Shown here piece by piece: positions 12,545 through 56,026 of a DNA stretch of 64,000 nucleotides. Positions within the stretch are counted from its first letter, which is position 1. Every line of letters begins with the position of its first letter. The notes under the pieces are model-generated. The model was not told where the DNA came from. It did no database searches and worked only from the letters and a program-made list of their open reading frames with translations. A program made the position numbers and the translations under genes. The DNA is from Mesostigma viride (lineage: Eukaryota > Streptophyta > Mesostigmatophyceae > Mesostigmatales > Mesostigmataceae): the NCBI GenBank assembly GCA_009746045.1, contig RPFO01000156.1:2485588-2549587 (forward strand), read 5' to 3'.

Positions 12545-15500
12545 TTAAATAAATGGGAACACCAGATATTCTGCATAGAAAAGGTTCCAGATGTTGGCAT
12601 AAAAGCGGGCGATGGCATCCTGCAATGAACAAGAGAGTAATAACAGGAAGAACAAAAACTTTTCAGTCAAGAGTCAACATATGGTAAAGCAAAACGTAAG
12701 GCGGCACAATAACAAACGACTTCTCAGAAGTCATGTCTTGGTAGATGAATGAACAGAGAGGGCTTGGTGTAACACTTCTGTTCATTACCCAGCTAGATGC
12801 TCGTAGAATCTAGATTCAGAAACAGACGTGAAATTGCATGCCAAGCAGCAAATACCTAAAATGACCTTAGCTGAGGTCCTACTTATTTCTGTTTTTTTTT
12901 TCATTAGCATAGTACTACGTGAGAGGCCCTCACGCGGCGCTTGCAACTACGTATTTACTAGGCCTTTCCATTTTGACCATCTATCTGCCCGCCCCCCCCC
13001 CCCCCGCCCGCCCGCCCGCCCGCCCACCCGCCCGCCCGCCCACTCGCCCGCCCGCCCGCCCGCCCGCCCGCCCGCCCGCCCACCCGCCCGCCCGCCCACT
13101 CGCCCGCCTGTGCGACACCGCTTGCCAAGCCAGCCACTGGTGCACATTTCGAGCCCGCCATATCTATCTTACTCGTGCGAATTTCGAGCCCGCCATATCT
13201 ATCTTACTCGTGCGCATTTCGAGCCCGCCATATCTATCTTTCGGACTTACTTCATATAGTTTTCAAAATAGACCTGCTAACTTGGGCAGTCCGGCGCGCC
13301 GGCTGCCCACTTCTTGCCATCCACCCCTTGCGTGGGCACAAGCCTAGAGGTAGCTTCATCCCATACCGACTCACCCGCGTGTACTTGCCGTCGTGCAGCT
13401 TCTTGAGCGTGTACGCCAAGAACACGGCAAACAGCGCGTGCGCACCCGCCATGACGGGGGTGTTGAACGCCTGGGGGAGGCGCGCATGCATACGTGTCAG
13501 TTGTGGGCAGAGGTGCACGCACAAATAGATGCAATGGTACTGTCAGATGGCCATCGAAGGGCACTATGGTTTATGCTGGGTGTAAGCCGCGTGAGGCGTG
13601 GTTGCACTGTTGATAGCGCCCCCAGGAATCCAACCCTACAATGACATTAAGGCACCAACTTGCTTTAGCGTTGCGAGGTCAGGGGAGATGCCCCAACTGT
13701 ATTGACCCGGTTAAAGGTATCAGCCGGTTGCAAAGGAGTGCGTTGCAGCCGTAATTGTGACAATAGAGCAAGGGGCGGCTGCAAGGCCCCAAGCAGCACC
13801 ATGAATCCGTTCTAGCCAGCCACTGCATCATGTAAAGAAAACCACTAGTTATAGCCATGCGATTGCCGCTGGGTAGTAGCATCGTACGCGTTCCGCTGTT
13901 AGCAGCGTCGCAAATGTGTGACTGCTAGGGCACCATGCATGCTGTGATAGGACATATGAATATGGGCACCATGCATGCTGTGATAGGGCATACGAATATG
14001 TCAAAACGCGGATACGACATGCGTGAAATATGGATACGAAAACATAATTGCAAAACGTATTTCCTATTAGTGCGTTCACGGCACGGAATGGCCACAGCAT
14101 CTCGAGGAGGCCTCTACGGCTTCGCACGCCCTACTGGCGCAGTTTTTTCCAAGGAAAAGCGGGTTGGGTTGTGGTTTGAACAAGTTGCGTTGGGGAGAGG
14201 CTCTGCACAGCATGAACTGGCACACATGCACTCTCAACGCCAGCGTTGGACTAGATTGCGCGTAAAGGTCACACCCGCGCCCACCGCATGCCTCCAAAGC
14301 ACCTGCACTTGGTAATGCTAAATGCACCTACGCCTCAACCACCAGCACTTGATATACATGTGCCTGCTTTCGGTGACCAGAAAAAAATGCACCGGCACCT
14401 TAAGCGCTCGCATGAAACACACCTCGGCCGGCTGCAAATACATGAATGCCATTAAATGGATTCTCCAGCTTTCTGGCCTGAGCTGGTTGTCTCATCGATT
14501 TCCATGCACATGGGCTTGCCTACTGCTGGCGTCATCACACACACATGCACACAAACCACACAGGGGCTGCCAGAAATGCACCCACCTGTACCTTGAACGT
14601 GAGCACCTGCCTGCACTCACCTGCACCTTGAATGCGAGCACGACGGCGGCGACATAGTTGAGCATGAGCAGGCCCGTGCCGATGGAGGCCACGTTGCGGG
14701 GACCCAGCCGTGTGGCAAAGGTGGAGATGTTGTAGCTGGCGAACATGGGGTGGGTGGCAGAGGTGACGAGCGACAGTGACCAACACACAGAAGGCATGGG
14801 TTAGATGGTGACATGGTGACATGGTGGTGAAGGTGGAGATGTTGTTGCTGGCGTACGTGCCGTACGGGGGCAAAGCTGACGAGTGGATAGTGACGGAAAC
14901 ACATCAGGCATGGGTTGGAGAGTTGGTCCGATGGTGACATGGCGTGGAGATGTTTAGCTGGCATGCGTACACACGAGGCAAAGGTGAGAGGAGACGGGGA
15001 CCAGCATAAGAGTGACCAACACACGCAGCATGGCATGGAGACGTGGTGAGAAGAGGTGACGGTACGGTGAGAAAAGGTTGTAGCTGGCGTCCGTACAGTG
15101 CAAGGGTGAGCGTGCAGGAGAGGGGGGAGCAGAAACACACACACGGTGTGACGCCGAGGGGGCATGAGACAGCGTGAAGATGTCGTAGGGGGCAAGGGTA
15201 AAGAGGACCTGGGGCAAAGGTAATGGGTGGCTGGGACCAACGCACACAGCATGGCATGGAGAGATGGTGGGATGGTCCCCCACTCATTGCCGCCCACTCT
15301 CCCCTCGCAGCATGTCACCCTATTCCCGCTGACACCACCACCATCACATCCTGGTCTACCAAGATTTCCCGCTTTATTTACATCGCAACTGGTCTACTTA
15401 GCCGCGTCCTCGTTAATAATAACTCACGGCTTGTCACCCGAGGTCGCCCCCCCTCACACCTTCACTGACATACTCAAGTGTGCCTATGCAACCACTTCCA

Positions 15501-18500
15501 CTATTCACCGCTTGTCGCCCTAAATTCTCTCCCATCAGCAATCACTCACACGTTTTCGCCGCAAACTACCTCTCACGTTCTCGCCACAAACTACCTCTCA
15601 TTAACAGTCCATCACAGCTTGTGGCCGTGGATATCCCCCCCTAACAAATGCTCATAATTTGCCGCCCTTGATATCCCCTCCTAGCAAATGCTCACAATTT
15701 GCCGCCCTTTATATTCCCCCCTAACAAATGCTCACAATTTTGCCGCCCTTGATATCCCCCCCTAACAAATGCTCACAATTTGCCGCCCTTGATATCCCCC
15801 CCTCCACCAATAACGCCCTACATCCAACCCTTGAACTGTCACTACAGCTTGTTGCCCTCAATACACCCCCCTAACAAACCACGCCCTAGATCCAACCCCG
15901 CCCCTGAGGTGTGCGCCCTTGAATGTCACTCACAGCTTGTCGCCCTCGATATCCGCCAAGTCCTTGGTGATCGCGATCACGACCGCAAACAGCGTCACGA
16001 AGCAGGTGATGAAGGCCACCGAGGGGCTGGCGCACGGCACGTGCCATTACAACGACCATGGTGACGAGGCAGGGCGCACGGCACAGGAGGCAGGGTGCAC
16101 GGCACAGGAGGCAGGGCGCACGGCACAGGGTGGATTTGTCACACGTCGACGATGAGGGGGCAGGGCGCACGACGATGCGATGAGAACAGGAGTATACAGC
16201 CTTGCACACCGCGGCAACGCCAACCATGCACGCAAACACACGACGTGAATGAAATAAACATCAAGTAAACCCATAACGAAAGCGCCCTAGACCCTAAGAC
16301 GTGAATGAAATAAACATCAAGTATACCCATTACGAAAGCACCCTAGACCCTAAGACGTGAATGAAATAAACATCAAGTAAACCCATAACGAAAGCACCCT
16401 AGACCCTAAGACGTGAATGAAATAAACATCAAGTAAACCCATTACGAAAGCACCCTAGACCCTAAGACGTGAATGAAATAAACATCAAGTATACCCATTA
16501 CGAAAGCACCCTAGACCCTAAGACGTGAATGAAATAAACATCAGGTAAACCCATAGCGAAAGCACCCTAGACCCTAAGACGTGAATGAAATAAACATCAG
16601 GTAAACCCATTACGAAAGCACCCTAGACCCTAAGACGTGAATGAAATAAACATCAGGTAAACCCATAGCGAAAGCACCCTAGACCCTAAGACGTGAATGA
16701 AATAAACATCAAGTAAACCCATAGCGAAAGCACCCTAGGCCCTAAGACGTGAATAAAATAAACACCAAGTAAACCCATTACGAAAGCACCCTAGACCCTA
16801 AGACGTGAATGAAATAAACATCAGGTAAACCCATTACGAAAGCACCCTAGACCCTAAGACGTGAATGAAATAAACACCAAGTAAACCCATAGCGAAAGCA
16901 CCCTAGACCCTAAGACGTGAATGAAATAAACATCAGGTAAACCCATAGCGAAAGCACCCTAGACCCTAAGACGTGAATGAAATAAACACCAAGTAAACCC
17001 ATAGCGAAAGCACCCTAGACCCTAAGACGTGAATGAAATAAACATCAGGTAAACCCATAGCGAAAGCACCCTAGACCCTAAGACGTGAATGAAATAAACA
17101 TCAAGTAAACCCATAGCGAAAGCACCCTAGACCCTGAGACGTGAATGAAATAAACATCAAGTAAACCCATAGCGAAAGCACCCTAGACCCTAAGACGTGA
17201 ATGAAATAAACACCAAGTAAACCCCTAGCGAAAGCACCCTAGACCCTAAGACGTGAATGAAATAAACATCAGGTAAACCCATTACGAAAGCACCCTAGAC
17301 CCTAAGACGTGAATGAAATAAACATCAGGTAAACCCATTACGAAAGCACCCTAGACCCTAAGACGTGAATGAAATAAACATCAGGTAAACCCATAGCGAA
17401 AGCACCCTAGACCCTAAGACGTGAATGAAATAAACATCAAGTAAACCCATAGCGAAAGCACCCTAGACCCTAAGACGTGAATGAAATAAACATCAGGTAA
17501 ACCCATTACGAAAGCACCCTAGACCCTAAGACATGAATGAAATAAACATCAAGTAAACCCATAGCGAAAGCACCCTAGACCCTAAGACGTGAATGAAATA
17601 AACATCAGGTAAACCCATTACGAAAGCACCCTAGACCCTAAGACGTGAATGAAATAAACATCAGGTAAACCCATTACGAAAGCACCCTAGACCCTAAGAC
17701 GTGAATGAAATAAACACCAAGTAAACCCATAGCGAAAGCACCCTAGACCCTAAGACGTGAATGAAATAAACATCAGGTAAACCCATTACGAAAGCACCCT
17801 AGACCCTAAGACGTGAATGAAATAAACATCAGGTAAACCCATAGCGAAAGCACCCTAGACCCTAAGACGTGAATGAAATAAACATCAAGTAAACCCATAG
17901 CGAAAGCACCCTAGACCCTAAGACGTGAATGAAATAAACACCAAGTAAACCCATAGCGAAAGCACCCTAGACCCTAAGACGTGAATGAAATAAACATCAG
18001 GTAAACCCATAGCGAAAGCACCCTAGACCCTAAGACGTGAATGAAATAAACACCAAGTAAACCCATAGCGAAAGCACCCTAGACCCTAAGACGTGAATGA
18101 AATAAACATCAGGTAAACCCATAGCGAAAGCACCCTAGACCCTAAGACGTGAATGAAATAAACATCAGGTAAACCCATTACGAAAGCACCCTAGACCCTA
18201 AGACGTGAATGAAATAAACATCAGGTAAACCCATAGCGAAAGCACCCTAGACCCTAAGACGTGAATGAAATAAACATCAAGTAAACCCATAGCGAAAGCA
18301 CCCTAGACCCTAAGACGTGAATGAAATAAACATCAGGTAAACCCATTACGAAAGCACCCTAGACCCTAAGACGTGAATGAAATAAACATCAAGTAAACCC
18401 ATAGCGAAAGCACCCTAGACCCTAAGACGTGAATGAAATAAACATCAGGTAAACCCATTACGAAAGCACCCTAGACCCTAAGACGTGAATGAAATAAACA

Positions 18501-21418
18501 TCAGGTAAACCCATTACGAAAGCACCCTAGACCCTAAGACGTGAATGAAATAAACATCAGGTAAACCCATTACGAAAGCACCCTAGACCCTAAGACGTGA
18601 ATGAAATAAACATCAGGTAAACCCATTACGAAAGCACCCTAGACCCTAAGACGTGAATGAAATAAACATCAAGTAAACCCATAGCGAAAGCACCCTAGAC
18701 CCTAAGACGTGAATGAAATAAACACCAAGTAAACCCATAGCGAAAGCACCCTAGACCCTAAGACGCGAATGAAATAAACATCAGGTAAACCCATTACGAA
18801 AGCACCGTAGACCCTAAGACGCGAATGAAATAAACATCAGGTAAACCCATTACGAAAGCACCCTAGACCCTAAGACGTGAATGAAATAAACATCAGGTAA
18901 ACCCATTACGAAAGCACCCTAGACCCTAAGACGTGAATGAAATAAACACCAAGTAAACCCATAGCGAAAGCACCCTAGACCCTAAGACGTGAATGAAATA
19001 AACATCAAGTAAACCCATAGCGAAAGCACCCTAGGCCCTACCCGCCAGAAATGGACCACAGCGGCTCATCTCCGGTACGGTACTGCAAAGTACCGCAGGT
19101 TGTGCTAGCCAACGTGATAACCAAAGTCGCGGCCACAACCCTATGCCGATTCAACCATCACAAGCACCGCACCAGCGAAAACACCACAACCCGCTGTGCT
19201 GGCTCAAACACCACAACTCCTGCGCTGGCTCGAACACCACAACTCCTGCGCTGGCTCAAACATCACACCTCCCGTGCAAGCTCACCTCCACTGGAACGGC
19301 AGGTTGAGCGCGGCGCGTGTCGCATGGTAGACGCCAAAGTTGAGCAGGAAGCCGCGCACCTGGGGCACAGGGGGTGGGTAGCGCGAGCAGGTGGGATACG
19401 CAATATAACCACAAGTAGGACGAGCAGGTGACGAACGCAATATGGCCACAGGTGGGTCAAGCAGGGGATGTTCAGGATGGCTAGAAGATGGGCATGGCGA
19501 GCAGGCAACATGCATGCACATGACTTGGACGTGCGCATGACTAGGACATGTGTGGCTCGGACAAGCGCATGACTAGGAGACATGCATAACTAGGAGATGC
19601 GCATGAATAGTCGATGTGCATGACTCGGACAAGCCCATGATAGGACATGTGCATGGCTTAGAGATGTGCATGAATAGGAGATGCACAGTGACCAAGGGAC
19701 ACGCATGCGCCAGCATCACAGTGACCAAGGAATGCACGCGTGTGCCAGCATCATCCTACCGTGGCGATGATGATGAAGGCGGCGAGCGGGAACTGCTTGA
19801 GCCGCATGGGAGGGACCGAGTAGATGGTGCCCAGGAAGAGGCCGAACGAGTAGAGGCAGGTGATGAGGCGGTCAAAGTTGCGGGCGACGATGCCCAGACC
19901 ACCGGCCGCCAGCAGAAGGCAGAGCATCCACGCGGCGGTCTTGGACAGCTCACCCGCCGCGACGGGGAGGAAGGGTTTGTTGACCCTGGAAGGAGGGGAG
20001 GGGGGGGGGGGGGGGCGGCAAATCGGGGAAGCCGCCAGAATTTTTAGCGACGTCGTGCAGATGGGCCAGAAAAGGTGGTAAGAGGGCGGGGGAGGGCGGA
20101 GGAGGGTGGGGGTGGGGGAGCTGGTGATAAAAGGCCAATAACATTGCTAAGTGACATTTTGGCCAAATGGCCAGATAAAGCAGCAAGTGACTTCTTGCAT
20201 GATTGAAAACCTGTGGCAAGCGGTTAAGTTCAAACATGGGAGCAGCAGGAGAAATTGGAGGGTTGCCGATGTCCATGGATGTACTAACGAAAATCAAAGG
20301 GGGGGGGGGGGGTTGTGTAGAAGGGAGCGGCCACAGTTTTTGGTTGTGCTTAAGGACGCCAACCATGATGCTGTAGTAGAATTATACAGCTGTGGTATGT
20401 AAGATAGGACGTAGATGATAAGATAGGATAGTATGTAGACAGACATACTTACATAGGCTATGTAGACAGACAAACTTACATAGGCTTGCAAGCTTTGCTT
20501 GTACTATGCATGATGCATAAGATGTTGGGGCAGTTATAACAAGTGACATACTGTATAATGTCATGCACCACATGACGGTGTGTTACACTTCTACAATACA
20601 GGGTATGCTGACTTGAGGGGAAAGCGCAGCACTTGGGAAAGGCGGTAGTGAATGCCGGCACAAGCTACACGAGCCTTGAAGAAGGAAAACATCGATGGAA
20701 ATGGATGAGTGAGCTTGCACAAAGGCCAATTATCAAGACACCAGTACGTACTTGTCAATCTCGACGTCATAGATCTGGTTAATGCCCACGATGTAGCCGT
20801 TTCCACACAGCAGCGCCACCAAGCCCAGCAGCGCCCGAGGCAAGAGACCCCAGTCAATCGCCTGGGAATTCTCCAGAAGCGCTCGGCTCGTTACGGCTCT
20901 GCATGGAGGATTCACAGAGAGTTATCCCAACATTGAAAATTTTTTGCGTTTCAAGTTGGAGAGTCACCCATGTCCGGTATTACTGCTAACAATGGCTATG
21001 TTTTAAGTAGCCAGTGCGGTGAAAGGCTATGCAGGCTTAAAAAAAAGAAAAAAGAAAAGTGATTTATTACTTACGTCGTTCCCAGTATCGTGCCACGAAT
21101 GGTATGTGGCCGCAAGAATTTCCAGCAGGCCGAAAGAAATGACGTTTGCCCGTCTCCTGCCGGTGCCCCAGCACCTCCGGCAGCTACTCCGGCGGCAGAG
21201 GCACGTGTTGCTAACGGAGCACGGCTGCCGCTCCTGGCAAGCTTCGGCTGCAAGGGGCGGAGACCTTGCAAAACAAAACTGGAAGATAACTTGCCCACAT
21301 TTACATGGCACGGGGGAGTGCCTCTAAGTGCACGACATTTACCAGCTGACGAGGAGATCTTATACGAAGCTACCGGCGTTTTTGGGCATTGAACGCGAAG
21401 ACCGAAAACACTAGCCAT
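12545..21418 (-). CDS. HST: Homogentisate solanesyltransferase (plastoquinone biosynthesis), 8 exons
   Basis: Exons on the minus strand are 21418-21075, 20898-20752, 19985-19760, 19359-19286, 16026-15934, 14735-14621, 13470-13375 and 12619-12545. All introns are GT-AG, all phases agree, and the join gives 389 residues plus TAA, close to plant HST length. The ATG at 21418 is the first methionine after upstream in-frame codons without ATG and begins a Ser/Arg/Ala-rich plastid transit-like region of about 85 residues. The mature part starts near [14 protein letters not shown]. Both UbiA prenyltransferase Mg-diphosphate motifs are present: NQIYDVEID at the exon 2 end and KDLADIEGD at the exon 5 end. 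The C-terminus, [19 protein letters not shown], is typical of HST. Known role: HST condenses homogentisate with solanesyl diphosphate at the plastid envelope, giving the plastoquinone-9 precursor. HST rather than tocopherol phytyltransferase is chosen from the [18 protein letters not shown] and ISTFATRLG blocks. The introns are full of repeats, described separately. Confidence 0.95.
12985..13112. repeat. CCCG/CCCA microsatellite in HST intron 7
   Basis: A poly-C run is followed by CCCG tetranucleotides with scattered CCCA and CTCG variants. The open frames it produces (Pro/Ala/Arg on plus, Gly/Ala/Arg on minus) are repeat translations and not genes. Confidence 0.9.
13146..13245. repeat. 35-bp tandem repeat, 3 copies, in HST intron 7
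   Basis: ATTTCGAGCCCGCCATATCT starts at 13146, 13181 and 13216, an exact 35-bp spacing. It lies between the CCCG array and HST exon 7. Confidence 0.9.
14388..14612. repeat. Decayed copies of the HST exon 6 donor edge
   Basis: The true exon 6 3' edge (plus strand ACTCACCTGCACCTTGAATG, 14615-14634) is followed downstream in the gene by a close copy, CCCACCTGTACCTTGAACG (14581-14599), and a weaker one at 14388-14412. The near copy retains a possible GT donor (read on the minus strand). Confidence 0.75.
14826..15200. repeat. Decayed copies of the HST exon 6 acceptor edge
   Basis: The true edge on the plus strand is GGAGATGTTGTAGCTGGCG (14723-14741). Variants recur in the intron at about 14831 (GGAGATGTTGTTGCTGGCG), 14943 (GGAGATGTTTAGCTGGC), 15069 (GTTGTAGCTGGCGTCCG) and 15175 (GAAGATGTCGTAGGGGGC). 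The intervening stretches also share CATGG and GACCAACACAC words, so the duplicated unit is larger than the splice site. Confidence 0.8.
15420..15870. repeat. Eight decayed copies of the HST exon 5 donor edge
   Basis: The true edge on the plus strand is CAGCTTGTCGCCCTCGATAT (15933-15952). Variants lie near 15422, 15507, 15612, 15650, 15691, 15732, 15773 and 15841. Several share CTCACAATTTGCCGCCCTTG and CCCCCCTAACAAATG, with about 41-bp spacing in the central cluster. Confidence 0.85.
16050..16175. repeat. Copies of the HST exon 5 acceptor edge
   Basis: The true boundary reads GGCTGGCGCACGGCACGTGCC (16025-16045) on the plus strand. GGCAGGGCGCACGGCACAGG and close variants follow at about 16070, 16088, 16106 and 16161, an 18-bp unit that keeps the acceptor region. 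Confidence 0.75.
16242..19036. repeat. 56-bp minisatellite, about 50 copies, in HST intron 4
   Basis: The unit starts GACGTGAATGAAATAAACAT and ends GCACCCTAGACCCTAA, and repeats every 56 bp (16242, 16298, 16354 and on). Copies differ at two diagnostic places: ATCAAG, ATCAGG or ACCAAG, and ATAGCG, ATTACG or ATAACG. The terminal CCCTAGACCCTAAG resembles CCCTAA telomere sequence but is not telomeric. The array is within the transcribed intron and contains no long open frame. Confidence 0.97.
19190..19285. repeat. Tandem repeat next to the HST exon 4 donor
   Basis: About three copies of a roughly 27-30 bp unit containing CACAACTCCTGCGCTGGCTC lead into the exon 4 donor (CAAGCTCACCTCC on the plus strand). 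The last unit grades into the splice site. Confidence 0.6.
19500..19720. repeat. Degenerate GCATGACTAGGAGATG-type repeat in HST intron 3
   Basis: Multiple variants of a roughly 16-20 bp unit with GCATGACT(A/C)GGA lie between 19500 and 19690, followed by two copies of CATCACAGTGACCAAGG-like sequence. The array is intronic and non-coding. Confidence 0.7.
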
Positions 21419-28692: not shown

Positions 28693-31600
28693 TTAGAAGA
28701 AGGGGATCTCAAACGGGATCTCCGGCAGGTACCGAGCGATCGTGATGATGACATCGGTGAGCGTGCTTGACACCTCAGCATCCTCCAGCACCGTAGCCGC
28801 CTGCTTGAGCGCCACCACCGCAGCCGTGGACGCCGCCAGCGCCGCCGCCGCCATGGCGATCTTGTTGGGCGACGCCACGATCGTGTCCTGGCACTCCGCC
28901 ATCGTCTTCACGTGCTCAGCCTCGTCGTCGGCAATGTTGGTGAAGACGTCGTACAGGTTGCGGCACTTGGGGCGGCGGGAGCCGGGAGCGCGGCTGGTCT
29001 GGAACTCGTCAAACCTGGTGTAGGTGAAGGTGCCCCATGCACCAGGGTTCAGGAGCAGGTGTAGGTGTTGGTGTGGGTGTAGGTGTAGGTGTGGGTGTAG
29101 GTGTAGGTGTAGGTGTGGGTGTGGGTGTAGGTGTGGGTGTAGGTGTGGGTGTAGGTGTGGGTGTAGGTGTGGGTGTAGGTGTGGGTGTAGGTGTGGGTGT
29201 AGGTGTAGGTGTAGGTGTGGGTGTGGGTGTGGGTGTAGGTGTGGGTGTAGGTGTAGGTGTAGGTGTGGGTGTGGGTGTAGGTGTGGGTGTAGGTGTGGGT
29301 GTAGGTGTGGGTGTAGGTGTGGGTGTAGGTGTGGGTGTAGGTGTGGGTGTAGGTGTAGGTGTAGGTGTGGGTGTGGGTGTGGGTGTAGGTGTGGGTGTAG
29401 GTGTGGGTGTAGGTGTGGGTGTAGGTGTTGGTGTGGGTGTAGGTGTAGGTGTGGGTGTAGGTGTAGGTGTAGGTGTGGGTGTGGGTGTGGGTGTAGGTGT
29501 GGGTGTAGGTGTAGGTGTAGGTGTGGGTGTAGGTGTGGGTGTGGGTGTCAGTATTAGGGTCGCGTTGGGAAAAGCGTTGAGATTCAATAGAAGACACATG
29601 GAGGGCGTCAAATGCACCATTTCGGTAGAGGCCAGAGGCAGGAACATTGCATGCTTTCTAGAGCCTTTCTTCAGGAAAAGGACATGATGGGAGTTGCTTG
29701 CACATTGGCAACGTCACACCTTGCATGTAGTGCTCAAAATTGCATGCAAGCCAACCTGAGAGGGCAGGATGCGAAGCATAGGAATGACACCATGTGGAAG
29801 GAAGAAACTGTCATTCATGGCAGCACACTCATGACGACAGCAAGGGATGTGGTAGACGAAGAAGCCTGGTAGAAGAGCTGCGATCTGCATGGGGCTTAGG
29901 AGAGGTATACTAGAGACCGCAAAAGGACATGCGATGCTTCCCTCACAGGTATGCACTACACCTTCGTTGGATTATGGTAACACAGCGACCTATGCAGGGT
30001 CAGCATTACGGAAACAGCCGCATGCCCATCAAATGCTGGTGGATGAAACAAAGGGAAGGACAATCCGTGAAACAAAGCCACCAGCATCAGGCGCCAAAAC
30101 TTGCCGAAGGACCAATACACGCATATCCACGTGCCCGACTGCATCAGCGATGGAGGGTGGCAGAATGCAGGTACCATACGGTGATACGGACATAGCGGAC
30201 ACGACCTGGTACTCACATGCACATGTCTCTCCCGGTGTAGTACTGGTGGATGACAGGCGGATGATGGGTGGGTAGGAGGTGGAGGACAGGTGCAAGAGAG
30301 GTGGAGGAGGAGAGGTGCAGGAGAGGTGGAGGAGCGGAGGAGAGGTGGAGGAGAGGTGGAGAGGTGAAGGAGAGGTGGAGAGGTGGAGAGGTGGAGGAGA
30401 GGTGGAGAGGTGAAGGAGAGGTGGAGGAGAGGTGGAGGAGAGGTGCAGGAGAGGTGAAGGAGGAGAGGTGCAGGAGAGGTGGAGGAGCGGAGGAGAGGTG
30501 GAGGAGAGGTGAAGGAGAGGTGGAGGAGAGGTGGAGGAGAGGTGGAGGAGAGGTGGAGGAGAGGTGGAGGAGAGGTGGAGGAGAGGTGGAGGAGAGGTGG
30601 AGGAGAGGTGGAGGAGAGGTGGAGGAGAGGTGGAGGAGAGGTGGAGGAGAGGTGGAGGAGAGGTGGAGGAGAGGTGGAGGAGAGGTGGAGGAGAGGTGGA
30701 GGAGAGGTGGAGGAGAGGTGGAGGAGAGGTGGGTAAGGGGTGGCGCGTACTCACATATACATGTCCGTCCCTGTGTAGTACTGGTGGATGACAGGTGGCG
30801 GCGGCAGCGTCTTCAGCAGCTCTGCGTTCTCGTCGCGGAACTGTTCGTACGTGTCCACTGTGGGTGGGAGGCAGGGAATATATAGCATGATGATGATTGT
30901 TAGTAGAATAATAATTAGCGTTAGCAGGTGTGAGCATTAGAACAAGCAGGTAAGAAGACAAGCGTCGCCTCAAAACTGTTAGTATGCGTTCACTGGGTGG
31001 CACACAAGAGGGGAAACTGGGTGGCACACAAGAGGGGTATGAAAAAGGCTGTTGGATGAGGTTGTGGGATGAATATTAGATTAGCTGCAGCAGCAAATGG
31101 AGAGGAAACGAGTTTTGCTATTTGGACAAGTCATTACAGGTCCACTGTACGTAACACGCAAGGGAAGTATAAGGGGTCCACTGTATACAGCAGGAAAGGC
31201 AAGGGGGGCATCGAGAAAAACAGCAAAGATGCAAGTCATAATTTGGGAGGGATGGCCTATGCGGGTCGATGTATTCTAATCAATGTTACTTCACCGTCAA
31301 AAGCAGGCAAAGTGTTGCTTTACAACTAGTTTGACCGAAGCTATCACCGACCTGCATGGGCCTCGATCAGCTCGCTGAAGTTGTAGGCCAGGCTCGGCGA
31401 GATGAGCCAGAGCAGACAGAGAATCATGTAGTAGGCGATGGCCGAATGGCGCGCGAAGAAGCGGTCGGCCCAATCCTTGTCACCGCCCAACGCCTCCATG
31501 GTCAGCAGGTGGTGAAACTCGTTCCTAGACATAGAAACAGGGGCAACGTGCATGTTGTGGTGGCAACAATACGTTTTTATGGTCAGATGGTGGTACTCCT

Positions 31601-34600
31601 TCCTATAGATAGAAACGAAACGGCAAGGATGGCACTGAGGCAAAAGTACCGCTCTACGGTCAGGAGGTGGTGGAACTTGTTTCCATGAACAAGAAAAGTG
31701 GCAACAAGAATGGTATAACAGCCCTAGCGTGTCCCTATGGTCAGCATGTGGTGGAACTTGTACCTCTATGAACAGAAACAAAATGGCATGGACGGCACAG
31801 GGACATGGGTGCAACTCCATGGTGGCAAATGGTGGAAATAGGTCAGGTTAGCCGTGAGTAGGGATGGCGCAAAGGCGTGCACCTTTGATAAAACAATCGT
31901 CCTTCCTTTTAGCAATTAACCGAGCCTGACGACCACCACTCCTTGGCAACCTGGCCAAAAATAAGGTGACATCTCACAGACCACCCCATATATCCTGCAG
32001 GGCATTATGGCTACGTATCATCCCCCCAAGGTGACCAACCAACCACTCCTCCTGCATGGGCATAGAGTGACCGACCAATATATGCCAGATTTGTCCCAAA
32101 GCCACGCACAGGTCCTCTGGATTGGTGTGCGCTACTTTGTGCCCACATGGCCAGTAGACCACTCACCACTCCTCGGCAAAGTGCACGTGCTTGACCACTC
32201 ACCACTCCTCGGCAAAGTGCACGCGCTTGACCTCAGCGGAGAAGCGCCACCAGCCGAGCGACTCATAGCCGTGAAGCATCGTCACGTAGGAGAAGTAGGG
32301 CATGCGGGCCACCGTCTGTTTCGGGGAAGCAAAGGAGCAGCGGGGCTGGGTTTAGACACTCTATCAGCGGTCACCTACGAGAAATAGGGCATGCGGGGCA
32401 CCGCTTGTTTGTTTGTTTGTTTGTTTGTTTGTTCGTTCGTTCGTTCGTTCGTTCGTTCGTTCGTTCGTTCGTTCGTTCGTTCGTTCGTTCGTTCGTTCGT
32501 TCGTTCGTTCGTTCGTTCGTTCGTTCGTTCGTTCGTTCGTTCGTTCGTTCGTTCGTTCGTTCGTTCGTTCGTTCGTTCGTTCGTTCGTTCGTTCGTTCGT
32601 TCGTTCGTTCGTTCGTTCGTTCGTTCGTTCGTTCGTTCGTTCGTTCGTTCGTTCGTTCGTTCGTTCGTTCGTTCGTTCGTTCGTTCGTTCGTTCGTTCGT
32701 TCGTTCGTTCGTTCGTTCGTTCGTTCGTTCGTTCGTTCGTTCGTTCGTTCGTTCGTTCGTTCGTTCGTTCGTTCGTTCGTTCGTTTGTTTGTTTGTTTGT
32801 TTGTTTGTTTGTTTGTTTGTTTGTTTGTTTGTTTGTTTGTGTGGTAACGTGTGTCAGGGGGGGAGGGAGGGAGGGGGAGAAGGTACAGCAAAGCGTTCAG
32901 GTTCCCACCAGTGTACTACGTACGGCATGCGGGCGACCGTCTGTTGTTCATGCGGGTGTTGGCATTGGTGTGGATGTTGGCATTGTTGATGCGGGTGTTG
33001 GCATTGGTTTGGATGTTGGCATTTGTGGTGTGGGTGTTGGCATTGGTGAAAGCACATGAGGAAGGGAAAGCACAAGGTTGTCATTGTATTCCATCAACAA
33101 TCACCTAAGATAGTCGGGCATGCGCGCCACCGACTGCAATCACATGCGTTAGGGGAGGACGGGCTTGGCACACATGCTGTGGTATTCCACTACTTGTGAT
33201 GTGCGACAAGGTAGGGCATGCGTGGGACCGACTGCTCAGGGGTAGGAACGGAGCAGGGGACCTCTGGTCCTTTATCACTATGTGTGAAAGAGGACAGGGT
33301 AAGGTTGGGTCAAGATCCACTCCTCCTCAAAGGTCCCGCATGAGAAGTAGGGCACGAGTGCCACCGTCTATTTGGGGGGTTGGAGGACGGCACGTGACAG
33401 ACACTGGGCAGAGCTTTACTATCCCACCAATCACAACATTCTTAGAGCATGATTCAGGGCACGAGTGCCACCATCTATTTGGAGGACGGAAAGGCGTAGA
33501 TAACAGGGCAGCAAGTTGGCATGGTTCGTACCATCCATCCACGGCAATGCATGGGAAGTAGCCAAGCAGGGCACTGGTGTGACGCTGTCTGGTTGAGACT
33601 GCGATGAATTGCAACATTATCGCAAGCCAACCCCCTTTCAGGCCCCAAAATCACCCAACAGGGTCCCAGGATACTGGTATTTAACCCCCCTGAGAAGGCT
33701 GACTCACTACCTGAGAGAGACCCGGCCAAAACCTGGGCTCATGAGGCTCTGCGTAGGAAGGGGGCATCAACCATTACTCCATTCATGCTGATGTCAAGGG
33801 GTAGGAATGAGGCGGCGGCGGGTCACTAGATTTAAAGAGGCTGCATATGGGTCTGCAAACTCTGCATATGGGTCTGCATATGGTGTCTGCATATGGTGTT
33901 TGCATGTGGTGTTTGCATGTGGTGTTTGCATATGGTGTTTGCATACGGTGTTTGCATGTGGTGTTTGCATATGGTAAACAGGCAGGGGTATTAAATAACT
34001 AGAGAGTGGTTGGGGGGGGGCATGGCCGGGCACCAAGGAAGGGAGTGTGCAGGTAAAAGCATTCCAGCATATATTCCACTATAGCTTGCTTTTACCCTAT
34101 CTAGCATACACTATAGCTTGCTTTTACCCTATCTAGTACACACTATAGCTTGCTTTTACCCTATCTAGTATCAAGGAGACAGCAAGCGCAGGCACTCTCT
34201 AGTATATACGCCAGCATACACACATATATCCTATGTTTGAATTCAATGATCCAAGATCATGTGTTCCAGGGAAGCTACAGGGATCACATTTTAAAACTAT
34301 ACCCCCCTCTCCCCACCCCTCACGCACACGCTGTAATACCTGCAAGCCCACAAGCCCGCATGCAGGCACACAAGCACACGCACAAACATGCGCGCCTACG
34401 CGCACATGCGCACACCCACACCCACGCCCACGCCCATGCCCACGCCCACACCCACGCCCACGCCCCCTGCGCCCGCGCCCACGCCCTCACGCATGACCTC
34501 ACCCCCATGCATGGCTACTGGGTTATTCATGAGTTATATGCGGTAAAAGGTATCTGCAGTAACAACCATCTGCCGTAACCGGAGCAACGTTGACCACTCT

Positions 34601-35573
34601 GCTTCCATGGAATGCTGGGAGTGGCTGGATTTCAGATGCTGCAACATGCGGCACGGTACAAAAGAGCACATATGCATACCTCGAGGAACCAGAAGCGGGG
34701 GATCGGCCGGCCGTCGAAGATTACGTCCAGGAGCCAGCACAGGAAGAGGTACGGTCCCTTGATGATCGGCGAGGTTTCCACCTCCGGGCGCGCCCGCTCC
34801 CGCTCCCAGATCGCTTCATTCGAGAGGGTCAGTTTCGCCAGCTTGGCCCGCAATTCCTGCACCTCGGGGCTGACCGGAGGCTCGGGCTCCTGCAGCTTGC
34901 GTAGCTTGTACCAGATGCTGGTGGATTCCGCGACGAAGTTGTTCTTAGCGACCGCGAGGCTGGTTGGCGGAGGGCCCATCTTCCGGGCATCTTCATCAAT
35001 GTACAGGCCTCCCTGTGATTTATAGCCGTAGTCGGTCGGAGGCAGCGTGTTGGGATCATCGGCATCTATTTTGGCCTGTACATCCTTGATAATCGTTTCT
35101 AAGGCCGCCAGTTCCTTCCGCCGTTCCTCTCGCTCCTTCTTCAGCTGCTTCATCGTCTCGCCGTTCGGGCTTTTCAAGGTTTTCAGGTCAATGCTCGCTG
35201 AGCATCTGACAACCTTATGCCGGGGATTGGCGCGCTGGGGATATGGTTGCCACCCCCACTGTGTGGAATGGGCAGATGAGCTTTTGTGGACACCATCGCT
35301 AAACTTGGGTAAGAAAGAGGAAGTTAGGCGAATTGCCGACATCCTTGTCCAAGTTTGCCCGGGAATGCGCTCAAAAGAATAACCCCACCTGTTTGTATTC
35401 TGCTCTTTCAGTCGGAAAACCTGATGCCCAAAGCTAACCAGGCAACGACGAAAAGTCGGTTGTGACCCGATGGTACACGGTTTTCCCAATTTTAGGGCAG
35501 CGCAGTGGTTTCCCGGGAATCTCGAATTGCCAACAGCGTGAGATAATGCATTCTTCCTCAATGGGCATGCCAT
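28693..35573 (-). CDS. PTOX: Plastid terminal oxidase (plastoquinol oxidase), 5 exons
   Basis: Exons on the minus strand are 35573-34680, 32315-32203, 31524-31352, 30857-30755 and 29014-28693. All junctions are GT-AG and in phase, giving 534 residues to TAA. A second in-frame ATG at 35342 gives 457 residues and a more typical transit peptide ([14 protein letters not shown]), so the true start is uncertain. The family signature is clear: PRFWFLE joins [19 protein letters not shown], then [54 protein letters not shown] and [13 protein letters not shown]. The six expected di-iron ligands (E; E and H of EFHH; E of IEAHA; E and H of EAEH) are all present. Known role: a non-haem di-iron oxidase at the thylakoid that passes electrons from plastoquinol to oxygen, supporting carotenoid desaturation and acting as a safety valve. 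The C-terminal Ala-rich extension is unusual. A tandem copy of the exon 2 donor would cause a stop if used, so the first donor was chosen. Confidence 0.95.
29047..29550. repeat. GGTGTA/GGTGTG hexanucleotide array at the PTOX exon 5 acceptor
   Basis: About 80 hexamers, GGTGTA and GGTGTG intermixed, begin within 35 bp of the exon 5 acceptor. On the sense strand they read CACCTACACC. The acceptor itself (CACCTACACCAG) has the same composition, so the array appears to have grown from the splice-site region. The long Thr/Pro, Gly/Val and Cys/Arg frames are repeat translations. Confidence 0.95.
30205..30740. repeat. 12-bp array beside the PTOX exon 4 donor, bounded by a copy of that edge
   Basis: GGTGGAGGAGAG repeats fill 30268-30730. 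On the right is the true exon 4 donor edge (GTACTCACATATACATGTCC, 30748-30767, then GTGTAGTACTGGTGGATGAC). On the left is a close copy of the same edge (GTACTCACATGCACATGTCT, from 30210, with the same GTGTAGTACTGGTGGATGAC). The array thus lies between a splice-site edge and its duplicate. Confidence 0.9.
31575..31775. repeat. Three decayed copies of the PTOX exon 3 acceptor edge
   Basis: The true edge on the plus strand is GGTCAGCAGGTGGTGAAACT followed by CGTTCCTAGAC (31499-31530). Variants begin at about 31579 (GGTCAGATGGTGGTACTCC), 31659 (GGTCAGGAGGTGGTGGAACT) and 31740 (GGTCAGCATGTGGTGGAACT), each followed by a GAACAG/GATAGAAAC-like stretch. Spacing is about 80 bp. Confidence 0.9.
32157..32231. 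repeat. 37-bp tandem duplication of the PTOX exon 2 donor edge
   Basis: GACCACTCACCACTCCTCGG with following CAAAGTGCACGTGCTT occurs twice in tandem, from 32157 and 32194. The right-hand copy is the true exon 2 end and donor. Use of the second donor would put TGA in frame after GAGGAGTGG. Confidence 0.95.
32371..33590. repeat. Seven decayed copies of the PTOX exon 2 acceptor edge in intron 1
   Basis: The true edge on the plus strand is GTAGGGCATGCGGGCCACCG then TCTGTTTC (32296-32323). Related segments lie near 32383 (ATAGGGCATGCGGGGCACCG), 32921 (TACGGCATGCGGGCGACCG), 33112 (GTCGGGCATGCGCGCCACCG), 33210 (TAGGGCATGCGTGGGACCG), 33347 (GTAGGGCACGAGTGCCACCG), 33456 (AGGGCACGAGTGCCACCA) and 33565 (AGGGCACTGGTGTGACGC). 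Nearly all retain an AG acceptor on the gene strand. Confidence 0.9.
32405..32840. repeat. GTTT-GTTC-GTTT tetranucleotide array in PTOX intron 1
   Basis: About 88 copies of GTTC (32432-32783) lie between shorter GTTT runs (32405-32431 and 32784-32840). The array starts exactly at the acceptor position of one duplicated exon 2 edge, whose normal flank reads TCTGTTTCGGGG. All frames are open on both strands, but only repeat peptides result. Confidence 0.97.
33835..33980. repeat. TTTGCATATGGTG repeats in PTOX intron 1
   Basis: About nine copies of a 13-15 bp unit (TCTGCATATGG and TTTGCATGTGGTG variants). Confidence 0.85.
34078..34172. repeat. 33-bp tandem repeat, 3 copies, in PTOX intron 1
   Basis: ACTATAGCTTGCTTTTACCC followed by TATCTAG occurs three times (from about 34079). 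The third copy runs into TATCAAGGAGACAGCAAGCG, a variant of the dispersed motif found at 59766. Confidence 0.85.
34370..34490. repeat. CACGCC/CACACC-rich low-complexity tract in PTOX intron 1
   Basis: Mixed CACGCC, CACACC and CACAAG hexamers. Low complexity without a single strict period. Confidence 0.8.
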
Positions 35574-36249: not shown

Positions 36250-38525
<2,276 letters not shown>

Positions 38526-41189: not shown

Positions 41190-43497
41190 TTAATTAATTA
41201 ATTAATTAGACTCGTGCTCCCGTTGGGGAGTCACGGAGCATTAACCCCGATGGATGGATGGATGGGTGCAACATTCCTACCGGTCTAATCTATCTACATC
41301 TATCTAACAACATGCTAACTACAACATCTATCTAGGCAGCCGCACGAGGGGAGCTATCTGGCGTGCCTCCCGCGGGATTGCACACGCGGGCGCTTCCCCA
41401 CTGGGGGGGCTCATTGTCCTCTATGACCTGGGCCCACTTGGCCTTGTCCATCATCTTCTTCCAAATCACGGAGAGGCCGAGGCCCCCCATGTCCTCTACT
41501 AGCTGTTCCTTGAAGGTGCGGGCCTTGCGGCGTCTAACATCACTAGGCCCAGCCCACGTCAGGAGGTGCCGGCCAGGCTGAGCTGGTCGCAGTCCTGCGG
41601 GGGGGCCACGTGAGGTGTCTACCTGGTTGGTGCGAGCTAGGTGCCCTACAAGCTGCAGGCGGCGTTGCTTAATTGTGCTGGTGATATAGGGCATGCCCTG
41701 CATGGTACAGGTCCTCATTGCGGACATGAGCAGCATATCCTACTCTGAAAATGGAACGCAGCATGCTGGTGACCGCGCCGTCCAGCTTGCGGGCCAGGTC
41801 GGCGGTGAGGGTCCACGTCTCGGCGCCATACGTGAGAACAGGAAGGACGAGGACCTTGAACAGGTCCTGTTTCCCGATCTTGCCCAGGGGCTTGCGCCAC
41901 AGGGCCCGGTACTGACGTAAAGCGTGCCAGGCGAGGGTGATGCGATGGTCCACATCAGCCTCGCAGCTGGGGAGCAGGCTGCCCAGCAGCTTAACGCGGT
42001 CCCGATACGGGACCCGAGAGCCGTCTAGGAGATAGAGGGGCGGCGCTGGGTTGGTGAGCCCCACCGCCAAGGCCTCTGTCTTCTTGCTGACCTCAAGCCC
42101 CACTGCCCGGGCCTCGAGAGCCAGGCAGTCAAGCCATGTCTGCACGTGCTCCGTGTCCTCGAAGAGGGTGGTGTCGTCTGCGTAAATGATGTCTGCTAGC
42201 CGAATCTCCGTGTCCGCACCGCCATGCCAGAATTTGTTAGCCACCTGCACTCCTGGTTCCCTGCCCACGATGCGGGCAAATCGCTTGCGCGCCTGAATCA
42301 TTACGTATTCGACAACAATAATGAACAGGTAGGGTGACAACACGCAGCCCTGCCACACACCCTTCTGTAAAGGGCATGGGGGCGTGGTCCCGTAAGAAGT
42401 GCGCACCGAAGTGGTGGACCCTTCATACAGGTTGCGGATGACAGCAATCAGGGGGCGGGGGATCCGGAACAACTCGAGGATGTCCCAAAGCGCAGGCCAG
42501 AAAACCGAATCGAAGGCTTTGATGAAGTCCACCAGCACAAGGTGCAAAGGGGACTCACCAGGCTGAAGGCGTTGCAGTTCCTCCACCAGTCGGCGAGTAG
42601 CGAAGAGCGCCTGTACTGTGTTGCGACCTGAACGGAAGCCGTGCTGAGTCTCGCTGAGGTGACCGTCCAGGGCCGTGCGCAGGCGGTTCAGGATGAGCCG
42701 CATAAGAAGCTTGAGGGGGGCACTTTGAATGCACACCCCTCTGTAGTTGCCGGGGTCGGCAGGCGACCCCTTGTTCTTGTACAGCATCGTGCGAAAACTG
42801 TGTTGCCAGGCCGCTGGAGGTGGTTGCGACGACAGCAGAAGGCGGTTGCAGATGTCCCGGAAGAGCAGCATAACACCTGTGTCCTCGAATTCGGCTGCAA
42901 GTTTTACAACTGCGGCCGGAATCTCGTCAGAGCCGGTGGCTGCGTCATACCGCAGGCGCTGGACCGCCTCCGTGACCTCGCGAGAGGTGAAAGGAGGCAT
43001 GTCAGACGGGTCGCCAAGTGGGCCGACCAGCGGGGGACTAGGTAGTCCGCCGCTGACCTAGGCGGGGCCGGGGGCCCTGCGGGGCCGGCCAGGGCGGCCG
43101 GGCGGGCGGCGGCGGCTGGGAGCAGGGGTGGGGGCGGCGCAGCTGTCCCCACGACCTCGGCCGTGGCCGTGGCCCAGGTACGAAGCCGCTTGGCTGGGGC
43201 GCCGGGGACGTCGTGGCGGCGGGGCCGGCCGAGGCCGTCCGGGTGCCCGAGGCGCTTGTACCAGAACCAGGCCCCCTTGCCGTCGTGCTTCTGCTGGCAG
43301 CTGCGCAGGTCCTTGACCATCTGCTGAGCATCTGCCTTCTCAGCCTGCTCGTAGGCGGCCCTCAGAGCTGCTTGCAGCCCAGGTTTGGCGATCGGATCTC
43401 TGTTGCGGCGGAGCATCTGCCTGGCGGCGACCACTGTCGGTGTGTGACGGTGGACAGCAAGCTGCCGACGCGGAGGCAAGGTGGGGGACCCTACCAT
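41190..43497 (-). mobile_element. LINE with reverse transcriptase, 5'-truncated
   Basis: Minus strand. 3' end: TTAA tail at 41192-41207, hairpin at 41212-41240, a CATC/GATG repeat, then the ORF2 stop at 41332. The reverse transcriptase is open from about 43000 to 41669 and then shifts frame to the C-terminal part (41736-41332). RT blocks visible are GSPADPGNYRGVCIQ, TQHGFRSGRNTVQALFATRR, LVDFIKAFDSVFW, GVWQGCVLSPYLFII, the catalytic YADDTT, and LTYGAETWTLT; GHLARTNQVDTSRG follows in the second frame. These suit an APE-type LINE of RTE-like character, with the clade uncertain. Upstream linker coding reaches 43497, where the copy is truncated; no endonuclease domain is left. Confidence 0.85.
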
Positions 43498-44205: not shown

Positions 44206-45500
44206 ACATGCCTCCGTTGGGAGATCATGTAGCACATATTCCTTGATGGATGGGTGGGGTGGAAGGAGCCGCGTAATCGAACTAACCTAACTCTAATCTA
44301 GCTAGTCTAGAAAAGTCCTAACTACCCTACTCATCAAAACGCCTCCTCCGCTTGGGGGGAGGTGGTTTGCCCACAGGGTCGGGCGTGTGAGCCTTGACAA
44401 TCCTCTTCCACCGCGTCTTGTTCTGCATGGCGGTCCAAAGAAGGGAGAGAGAGTGGATGCGGTATTCAAACTGGGCTGGGACCAGTAGGTCATCTGGACA
44501 GCAACATCTGTACGTAGTTCGTGACATAGTTTCCCTACCTTTTTGGCAATGCCCTTGGGGCCAGGCCAGGTCAGAATGTGCCGCCCTGGCTGGCCAAGCC
44601 GCTGGGGGCCGGCCAGACCAAGGGCGGTGTCGACCTGGCTGGTGCGAGCAAGGTGTCCTACAAATGCTATCCTACGCTGTCTAATCTCGTCCGAAATACG
44701 AGGCATGCCCTGATACAAAGACTCTGATGACGGGCGCTTGGAAAACCCTACGTTCAGGACCTGTCGGAGCATCCTGTAAACTGTGCCGTCTAGCCTAGAT
44801 GCCAGTGTGGGGTTGAGTGTCCACGCCTCGGCGCCATACGTGAGCACCGTGAGGACGAGGACCTTGAAGAGCATACGCTTGCGGTGTTCGCCCAGGCCCT
44901 TGGAGCGCCAGTAGGTGTTAAGCGAACGGAGCCTAGCCCAGGCCAGGCCAATGCGGGTGTCCACATCGTCGGCTGTGTCAGGAAGCCAGCTCCCTAACAG
45001 TTTGAAGCGGTCGCGGAACGGGACCGTCGTCCCGTCGAGCAAGCGCGGCAGCGGCGGTGTACTGGAGGCCCCAATCACCATCGCCTCAGTTTTGACACTA
45101 ATCTCCAACCCCACCGCCCTCGCCTCCAGGCCCAGACAGTCCAGCCAGGTCTGAATGTCCTCGGGGCGCGCGATGAGGGTGGTGTCATCCGCATAAATCA
45201 GGTCGGCCAGGCGGTAGCCAGGCTCAACCCCACCGTGCTCTTTCTCGTTAAGGATGTCCAAGCCTGGCTCGAACCGAGCAGTAAAGCGCGCACGTGCTCG
45301 GCGCATGACGTGATCCACGACAATAATGAACAGGTATGGGGACAGGACACAACCTTGCCACACCCCGTGGTGAAGGGGGAATGGTGGGGTGGTGCCTTCC
45401 GCAGTCCGCACTACTGCCTGTGAGCCCTCATACAGCCGGCGAATGGCAGCAATAAACGCAGGTGGCACTCGATCCAGAGCTAGGATGGCCCAAAGACTCT
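43975..45500 (-). mobile_element. LINE with reverse transcriptase and expanded TTAAA tail, 5'-truncated
   Basis: Minus strand. An open frame runs from 45468 to 44302 with the RT middle and C-terminal parts: AIRRLYEGSQAVV, GVWQGCVLSPYLFIIVVDHV, LIYADDTTLIARPEDIQTWL, FKLLGSWLPDTADDVDTRI, LTYGAEAWTLNPTL and GHLARTSQVDTALG. The copy starts within the RT, so it is dead on arrival. The 3' end has the CTCC/GGAG hairpin near 44203-44230 and then about 45 TTAAA pentamers (43975-44205). It is inserted into another minus-strand LINE relic (45505-46130). Confidence 0.85.

Positions 45501-55803: not shown

Positions 55804-56026
<223 letters not shown>

Follow-up and report, generated by a model that had tools for sequence, protein, structure and literature searches.

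Copies of exon edges at splice sites in introns of PTOX and other genes of the streptophyte alga Mesostigma viride

Single duplications that cross an intron–exon boundary are already known. In the RdRp gene of potato, a tandem duplication runs across the boundary between intron 1 and exon 2 (Ma et al. 2016; PMC4974935), and intron sliding and intron gain by tandem duplication have been described in Drosophila (PMC2891723). Direct repeats of 4–30 bp, with a mean of 11.4 bp, lie near intron borders (Rogers and Bendich 2025; PMC11782384), and small tandem duplications arise from break repair involving Pol alpha-primase/CST (PMC8355091, which cites Vaughn and Bennetzen 2014 for rice and Schiml et al. 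2016 for plant genomes). The introns of the streptophyte alga Mesostigma viride have been characterised as long and repeat-rich in one description of its genome (PMC6947507), and the word "intron" is absent from the main text of another (PMC7027972). Here we report that introns of the PTOX gene, located in a 64,000-nt stretch of M. viride nuclear DNA (G000:C2:2485588-2549587 of a 439.9 Mb assembly; hereafter the window, to which all positions refer), contain arrays of decayed copies of the splice-site edges of their own exons, and that such copies are spread over several unrelated genes of this genome. A literature search found no report of arrays on this scale and no account of them as a genome-wide habit, an absence that is unproven since subscription papers were mostly outside its scope.

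The M. viride copies resemble the potato case in being DNA-level tandem duplications over one intron–exon boundary, with the splice signals copied too; an arrangement of this type, with exon and intron sequence in one direct unit at the same locus, was found for 39 copies. However, the potato account concerns one event in one gene that made a new intron, whereas in M. viride existing introns of several genes have grown, with the copy inside the intron and often more than one copy per junction. No newly made spliced intron was found in PTOX, whose four introns are the same as in its paralogue. The Drosophila case likewise involves tandem duplication of coding sequence adjoining introns, but it is described as yielding new intron positions rather than arrays of edge copies in old introns. 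The repeats of Rogers and Bendich also lie at or near splice borders, but they are common to both intron ends and are read as insertion traces, while in M. viride a single edge recurs inside the intron, often in several copies. Introners (PMC9860276) represent a genome-wide intron-shaping process, as proposed for M. viride, but place their copies in many genes, whereas the M. viride copies lie in their own intron. The short tandem duplications of PMC8355091 are similar to the M. viride units and a plausible source of them; the main text of that study draws no link to introns, the word occurring there 0 times.

Edge copies in the introns of PTOX

The spliced model of PTOX comprises five exons on the minus strand, where its edge copies also lie, and encodes a protein of 457 aa, 100% identical to the annotated protein Mv00728-RA. 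The coding part of exon 1 (34680–35342) matches this protein exactly. Splice models and edge alignments revealed that both edges of exon 2 (32203–32315) are copied into the adjoining introns, the acceptor edge of exon 3 (31352–31524) into intron 2, and the donor edge of exon 4 (30755–30857) into intron 4; exon 5, placed by the splice model, is at 28696–29014. Copies were searched for in 13 introns by aligning each junction, as an 80-nt segment with the junction at its centre, to the intron concerned; scores were compared with those from 200 order-2 Markov shuffles of that intron, and the test was rerun with simple repeats masked.

In intron 1 (32316–34679), six copies of the exon 2 acceptor edge scored above all 200 shuffles. 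They are located at 32370–32410 (score 52), 32920–32945 (score 42), 33101–33136 (score 38), 33211–33259 (score 43), 33333–33378 (score 52), and 33456–33494 (score 33), and each was also examined in alignment. The sequence-only reading of this locus had counted seven; the last, a weak one at about 33545–33600, is supported by alignment and does not rise above the shuffles. A repeat scan placed a (GTTC)n array of about 108 copies (32407–32837) between the first two. The masked rerun again returned six copies, the first shrinking to its exon part, since its intron part consists of (GTTC)n. The fifth and sixth copies have bases in common that are absent from the exon edge; therefore, a copy was the source of both, and the array grew in part through the copying of copies.

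In intron 2 (31525–32202), three copies of the exon 3 acceptor edge pass the shuffle test and form, by alignment, a tandem array with a period of roughly 80 bp: 31579–31616, 31652–31705, in which AG is changed to GG, and 31737–31780. A fourth, partial copy near 31817 is seen in alignment only. All four carry C where the exon has T in the third position of a Phe codon, as would be expected if the exon had changed synonymously after copying. The exon 2 donor edge is part of a 36-bp tandem duplication identified by repeat scan (32157–32232; 2.1 copies, 97% matches), and translation continued to the second donor would run into an in-frame TGA. These three acceptor copies and the tandem donor copy confirm what had been read from the sequence for this intron. 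Another copy of the exon 2 donor edge lies at 31921–31949 (score 33), and intron 4 contains a copy of the exon 4 donor edge that passes alignment and shuffle tests (30209–30260; 88% identity over 52 bp) and lies outside the range considered earlier. The claim that nearly all acceptor copies keep an AG also holds, with five of the five junction-spanning copies in intron 1 and two of the three scored copies in intron 2 retaining it. The exon-proximal splice sites are presumably those used in PTOX, as the annotated protein requires them.

A paralogue, PTOX2, is located on another contig (L003, protein P0002) and shares all four intron positions with PTOX (PTOX1 in this comparison), but its intron 1 is 295 bp long versus 2364 bp in PTOX1. 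No counterpart of the acceptor arrays of PTOX1 introns 1 and 2, or of the donor copy in intron 4, was found in PTOX2 above threshold; therefore, these arrays and the intron 4 copy arose, or were lost, after the two paralogues split. PTOX2 has copies of its own, of the intron 3 acceptor edge and, more weakly, of the intron 2 donor edge, the latter also being copied in PTOX1.

Edge copies in other genes and their anatomy

The survey comprised 46 introns of 17 genes: 18 introns from four annotated genes, 23 from chaperonin (CCT, PF00118) genes, and 5 from tRNA synthetase (PF00133) genes. The chaperonin genes were taken without regard to repeats to avoid choice by eye. Introns of these two families were modelled only where the family profile showed almost no gap between adjacent exon matches (24 and 5 introns), the chaperonin models relying also on phase and GT-AG ends; locus Jb, almost a copy of locus J, was not included in the 46. 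A copy was counted as spanning if it contained at least 8 exon nt and at least 2 intron nt, and exon-only or intron-only matches were not counted. By this measure, 39 spanning copies of own edges were found, at 20 of 92 junctions and in 17 of 46 introns. Outside the window, they occur at 14 of 64 junctions and in 13 of 32 introns, so that the proposal of a general habit of this genome holds as far as it was sampled. The chaperonin genes contributed spanning copies in 8/24 introns and at 8/48 junctions (Jb counted), the synthetase genes in 4/5 introns and at 5/10 junctions.

The matches to exon edges are far above chance in all comparisons, against shuffles, inverted sequence, and the introns of other genes. 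Only one spanning match appeared in 1840 cross-gene tests (20 sampled introns of other genes per edge, best match only), and none in inverted orientation at 84 junctions (Jb counted) and 10 synthetase junctions. With simple repeats masked, 21 of 84 junctions retained some match and 16 a spanning one. A rerun with non-overlapping query and target again gave 20 junctions (13 donor and 7 acceptor; intron H4 omitted); self-matches arising from a 20-nt overlap of query and target in some counts do not span the junction and were dropped.

One neighbour of PTOX in the window is the homogentisate solanesyltransferase gene Mv00726, and an SDR gene, Mv00731, lies at the far end and runs off the window. 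Intron 5 of the solanesyltransferase gene carries, on the minus strand, three copies of the exon 5 donor edge (15828–15863, 15772–15800, and 15612–15639) and two of the exon 6 acceptor edge (14824–14883 and 14944–14962), which pass the shuffle test also after masking. In the chaperonin gene H (G000:C1468), a 76-bp unit extends across the donor, with three extra donor copies; the array is young, because its copies are 97% identical. The synthetase locus RS224 has three acceptor copies, 84–90% identical over 79 bp, about 950–1150 bp upstream of the modelled acceptor.

Some features of these genes were noted along the way. The annotated Mv00726 protein reads past the donor after exon 6 (CAG|GTGAGT, 14621/14620) into the intron (14495–14734), and a likely exon 7, missing from the annotation, is located at 13375–13470, where we assume a resemblance to the solanesyltransferase family. 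Intron 4 of this gene (16242–19040) consists mostly of 50 copies of a 56-bp unit with 96% matches, and this array did not match the edges tested. Two stretches (G000:C1641:60944-67934 and G000:C887:341605-349664; L047 and L048) are near-identical copies of one chaperonin region (95.6–97.3%), one being about 3 kb longer in an intron; they probably represent alleles, or a recent duplicate, in the assembly. On G000:C2011, the chaperonin and class I tRNA synthetase matches are full-length and occupy single long open frames, while other matches are split into exons, and this contig may be a bacterial contaminant.

The exon part of the copies is 8–73 nt long (median 24 nt; all but one of the 39 copies have 8–47 nt, the remaining one 73 nt), their median identity is 0.85, and they are 54 to 1144 bp away from the edge. 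Since the copies include intron sequence, they were copied as DNA and not from spliced RNA. With a piece of exon and its flanking intron in each copy, in direct orientation and in the same intron, they are neither transpositions nor whole-exon duplications, as had been recognised from the sequence. Clean edge arrays have units of 36, 76, about 80, and about 95 bp. Those of the PTOX exon 2 donor (36 bp), gene H (76 bp), and the PTOX intron 2 acceptor (about 80 bp) are head-to-tail, single-unit arrays, as in minisatellites, while those of PTOX intron 1 and RS224 are interrupted.

Local duplication extends beyond the edges. In five random 6-kb stretches of the genome, 13.0% of segments have a local copy (reversed control 3.6%); a single stretch reached 32%, and 17% in its control. 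The same type of count in introns gave 17.4% outside the window (reversed 1.1%) and 43.0% within it (reversed 0), which places the window at the high end. Of the 80-nt segments of the window, none of the 77 from exon interiors had a local direct copy; the share was 36% among 53 junction segments, 54% among 470 from intron interiors (H4 array included), and 11% among 2282 from the remainder. Recent events are visible in the comparison of loci J and Jb (95.6–97.3% identical where aligned), which differ by an insertion of about 3 kb and by eight indels of at least 4 bp, five of them tandem duplications of 4, 5, 7, 18, and 43 bp, the shortest three of which (4, 5, and 7 bp) could be slippage. Among 15 young two-copy duplications in 210 kb, the overlap is 1–8 bp in nine, absent in four, and 14 and 25 bp in two.

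Tandem duplication as the probable source of the copies, and a possible role of splice junctions

These observations are probably best explained by recurrent short tandem duplication at the DNA level, tolerated across junctions, which would build introns filled with worn look-alikes of their own splice sites. The genome of M. viride would keep producing tandem duplications with units of tens of bp, possibly through the filling-in and joining of staggered breaks (PMC8355091) or of paired nicks, a route with which the overlaps of the duplications appear compatible. Where such a duplication crosses a junction, the exon-proximal splice site would still yield the correct mRNA, and the other copy, with its 8–73 nt of former exon, would now be intronic and removed by splicing. 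If the exon-proximal site wins, as is presumably the case in vivo, a straddling duplication would cost little; it would be tolerated, the intron would lengthen, and the exon-proximal copy would be open to renewed duplication. Copies could then multiply within the array in minisatellite fashion and be spread apart by simple-repeat growth or insertions. Since the exon edge is under selection, its decaying copies would stay recognisable longer than copies of intron sequence.

Several points weigh against this explanation. Outside the window, spanning copies occur at 14 of 64 junctions (21.9%) and local copies at 73 of 668 interior points (10.9%), a ratio of 2.0, and the excess is mainly at donors (10/32, versus 4/32 acceptors). 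A simulation of uniform duplication with identical statistics predicts that junctions should reach only 0.43–0.6 times the interior rate. High-identity tandem arrays account for 12.3% of intron bases when H4 is set aside, yet cross only 2 of 82 junctions. Copies of the exon 2 donor edge occur in both PTOX genes, and hence not all copies are paralogue-specific. Among 29 less certain chaperonin edges, tested separately, three were positive. The sample is small (46 introns of 17 genes, 28 introns coming from two protein families), the gene models beyond the four annotated genes, as well as solanesyltransferase exon 7, are our own, and the scan covered the genome of Mesostigma alone, so that how unusual the rate is was judged from the literature.

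The junction counts raise the question of whether duplications preferentially hit splice junctions, and donors in particular, or preferentially survive there. More duplications might form at intron starts, for example where nascent RNA pairs with DNA or strands are nicked, or they might be retained because a second competent splice site is of use. We regard this as fairly unlikely. It draws on the donor frequency outside the window, set against the interior rate and the half or so of that rate expected from the simulation, and on the fraction of donor-junction segments with a copy, 0.232, which exceeds that in the first 75 bp of the intron (0.06–0.13 at 5–35 bp inside it). The simulation of uniform duplication nevertheless reproduces the observed shape, which tapers off into the exon and dips just inside the intron, and young arrays are not clustered at junctions. 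In the window genes, junctions (6/26, 23.1%) do not exceed interior points (77/269, 28.6%; most of the SDR intron S0, one of the 13 introns in this count, is outside the window), and inclusion of the less certain edges dilutes the outside excess to 17/93. The interior counts omit intron H4 and its 50 copies of a 56-bp unit; another such count gave 42/299 interior points with a local copy. The view that duplication is centred on splice sites, expressed in the sequence-only reading, could therefore not be established, intron interiors being locally duplicated too and edge copies being in part more visible because the exon is conserved. A residual junction excess over the uniform model does exist, mainly at donors outside the window, with few genes behind it. 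Our own first reading, of junctions as a mere part of a uniform process, was weakened by the outside-window comparison.

Retention of the splice dinucleotides bears on the same question. In the first 41 introns, GT is kept in 17/17 donor copies and AG in 12/13 acceptor copies, and in all 46 introns 37 of 39 copies keep the dinucleotide. Where at least 6 intron nt are aligned and the gene H intron is excluded, retention is 28/30, versus 55/81 for other GT or AG in the same alignments (Fisher p 0.006). Under the same exclusion, position-matched interior duplicates retain 0.683, and 15 of 17 junctions keep GT/AG in every copy (p ~0.02). These figures would suit a preference for junctions, but the expected retention is raised because the genuine splice site does not change, unlike the other intron bases of the original, which drift; copies in one array are not independent in these tests; and lowering the threshold to 27 gives 24/27 (P 0.006), weaker than 23/24 (P 0.0006). 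In the count of the same dinucleotide elsewhere, GT is kept in 46/50 cases (gene H array and second donor GTs counted) and AG in 6/7. Selection on splice dinucleotides, as we first read the data, was weakened by these last counts and partly revived by the stricter controls, so that preservation of the dinucleotides in copies is suggestive. That duplication biased to junctions, especially donors, or selection furnishes many introns with banks of spare splice sites whose GT/AG is maintained and which act as buffers or decoys in site choice seems to us a doubtful proposition.

It is very improbable that duplicated pieces of exon gave rise to the introns themselves (Rogers/Hellsten type), a possibility to which the exon-derived sequence inside them might point. 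All four PTOX intron positions are common to PTOX2, which has no acceptor arrays like those of PTOX1, and the introns therefore look older than the arrays; intron gain from duplication of an AGGT-bearing exon is not what the two genes display. Moreover, the exon parts measure only 8–47 nt in nearly all copies, and flanking intron was copied along with them. Mobile introner-like elements or transposons carrying exon-edge sequence are hardly credible as a source, even though repeats make up 30.1% of the M. viride intron space (PMC6947507): the copies are in direct orientation only, the cross-gene tests did not reveal similar sequence in the introns of many genes, and a genome DNA search with exon 2 and its donor region, in which simple repeats and very common words were skipped, returned two places, the gene and its paralogue. 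Chance or low-complexity similarity, conceivable in introns rich in simple repeats, is next to negligible given that the copies beat all shuffles with simple repeats masked and that the inverted and cross-gene controls are near zero.

Other repeats in the window and implications for intron evolution

Elsewhere in the window, long open frames at 41759–42703 and 44803–45348 contain wording such as LVDFIKAFDSVFWP and DLIYADDTTLIA and presumably belong to LINE-type reverse transcriptases; a motif such as DPQKPKVYWRGGDL recurs at other places in the window. Long perfect or near-perfect simple arrays are located at 55804–56024 ((CAG) x 73.7) and 37325–37610 (8-bp unit x 35.8).

Recurrent tandem duplication across junctions would offer a simple and visible route for intron lengthening, which proceeds from the edges by local duplication, with the exon serving as a reference that dates each copy. 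Such introns also provide natural tests of how the spliceosome chooses among near-identical sites, for example, in gene H, where the donor and three 97% copies stand in a row. If junctions are truly favoured, or the copies preserved, this would connect DNA repair and transcription to intron evolution in a new way.

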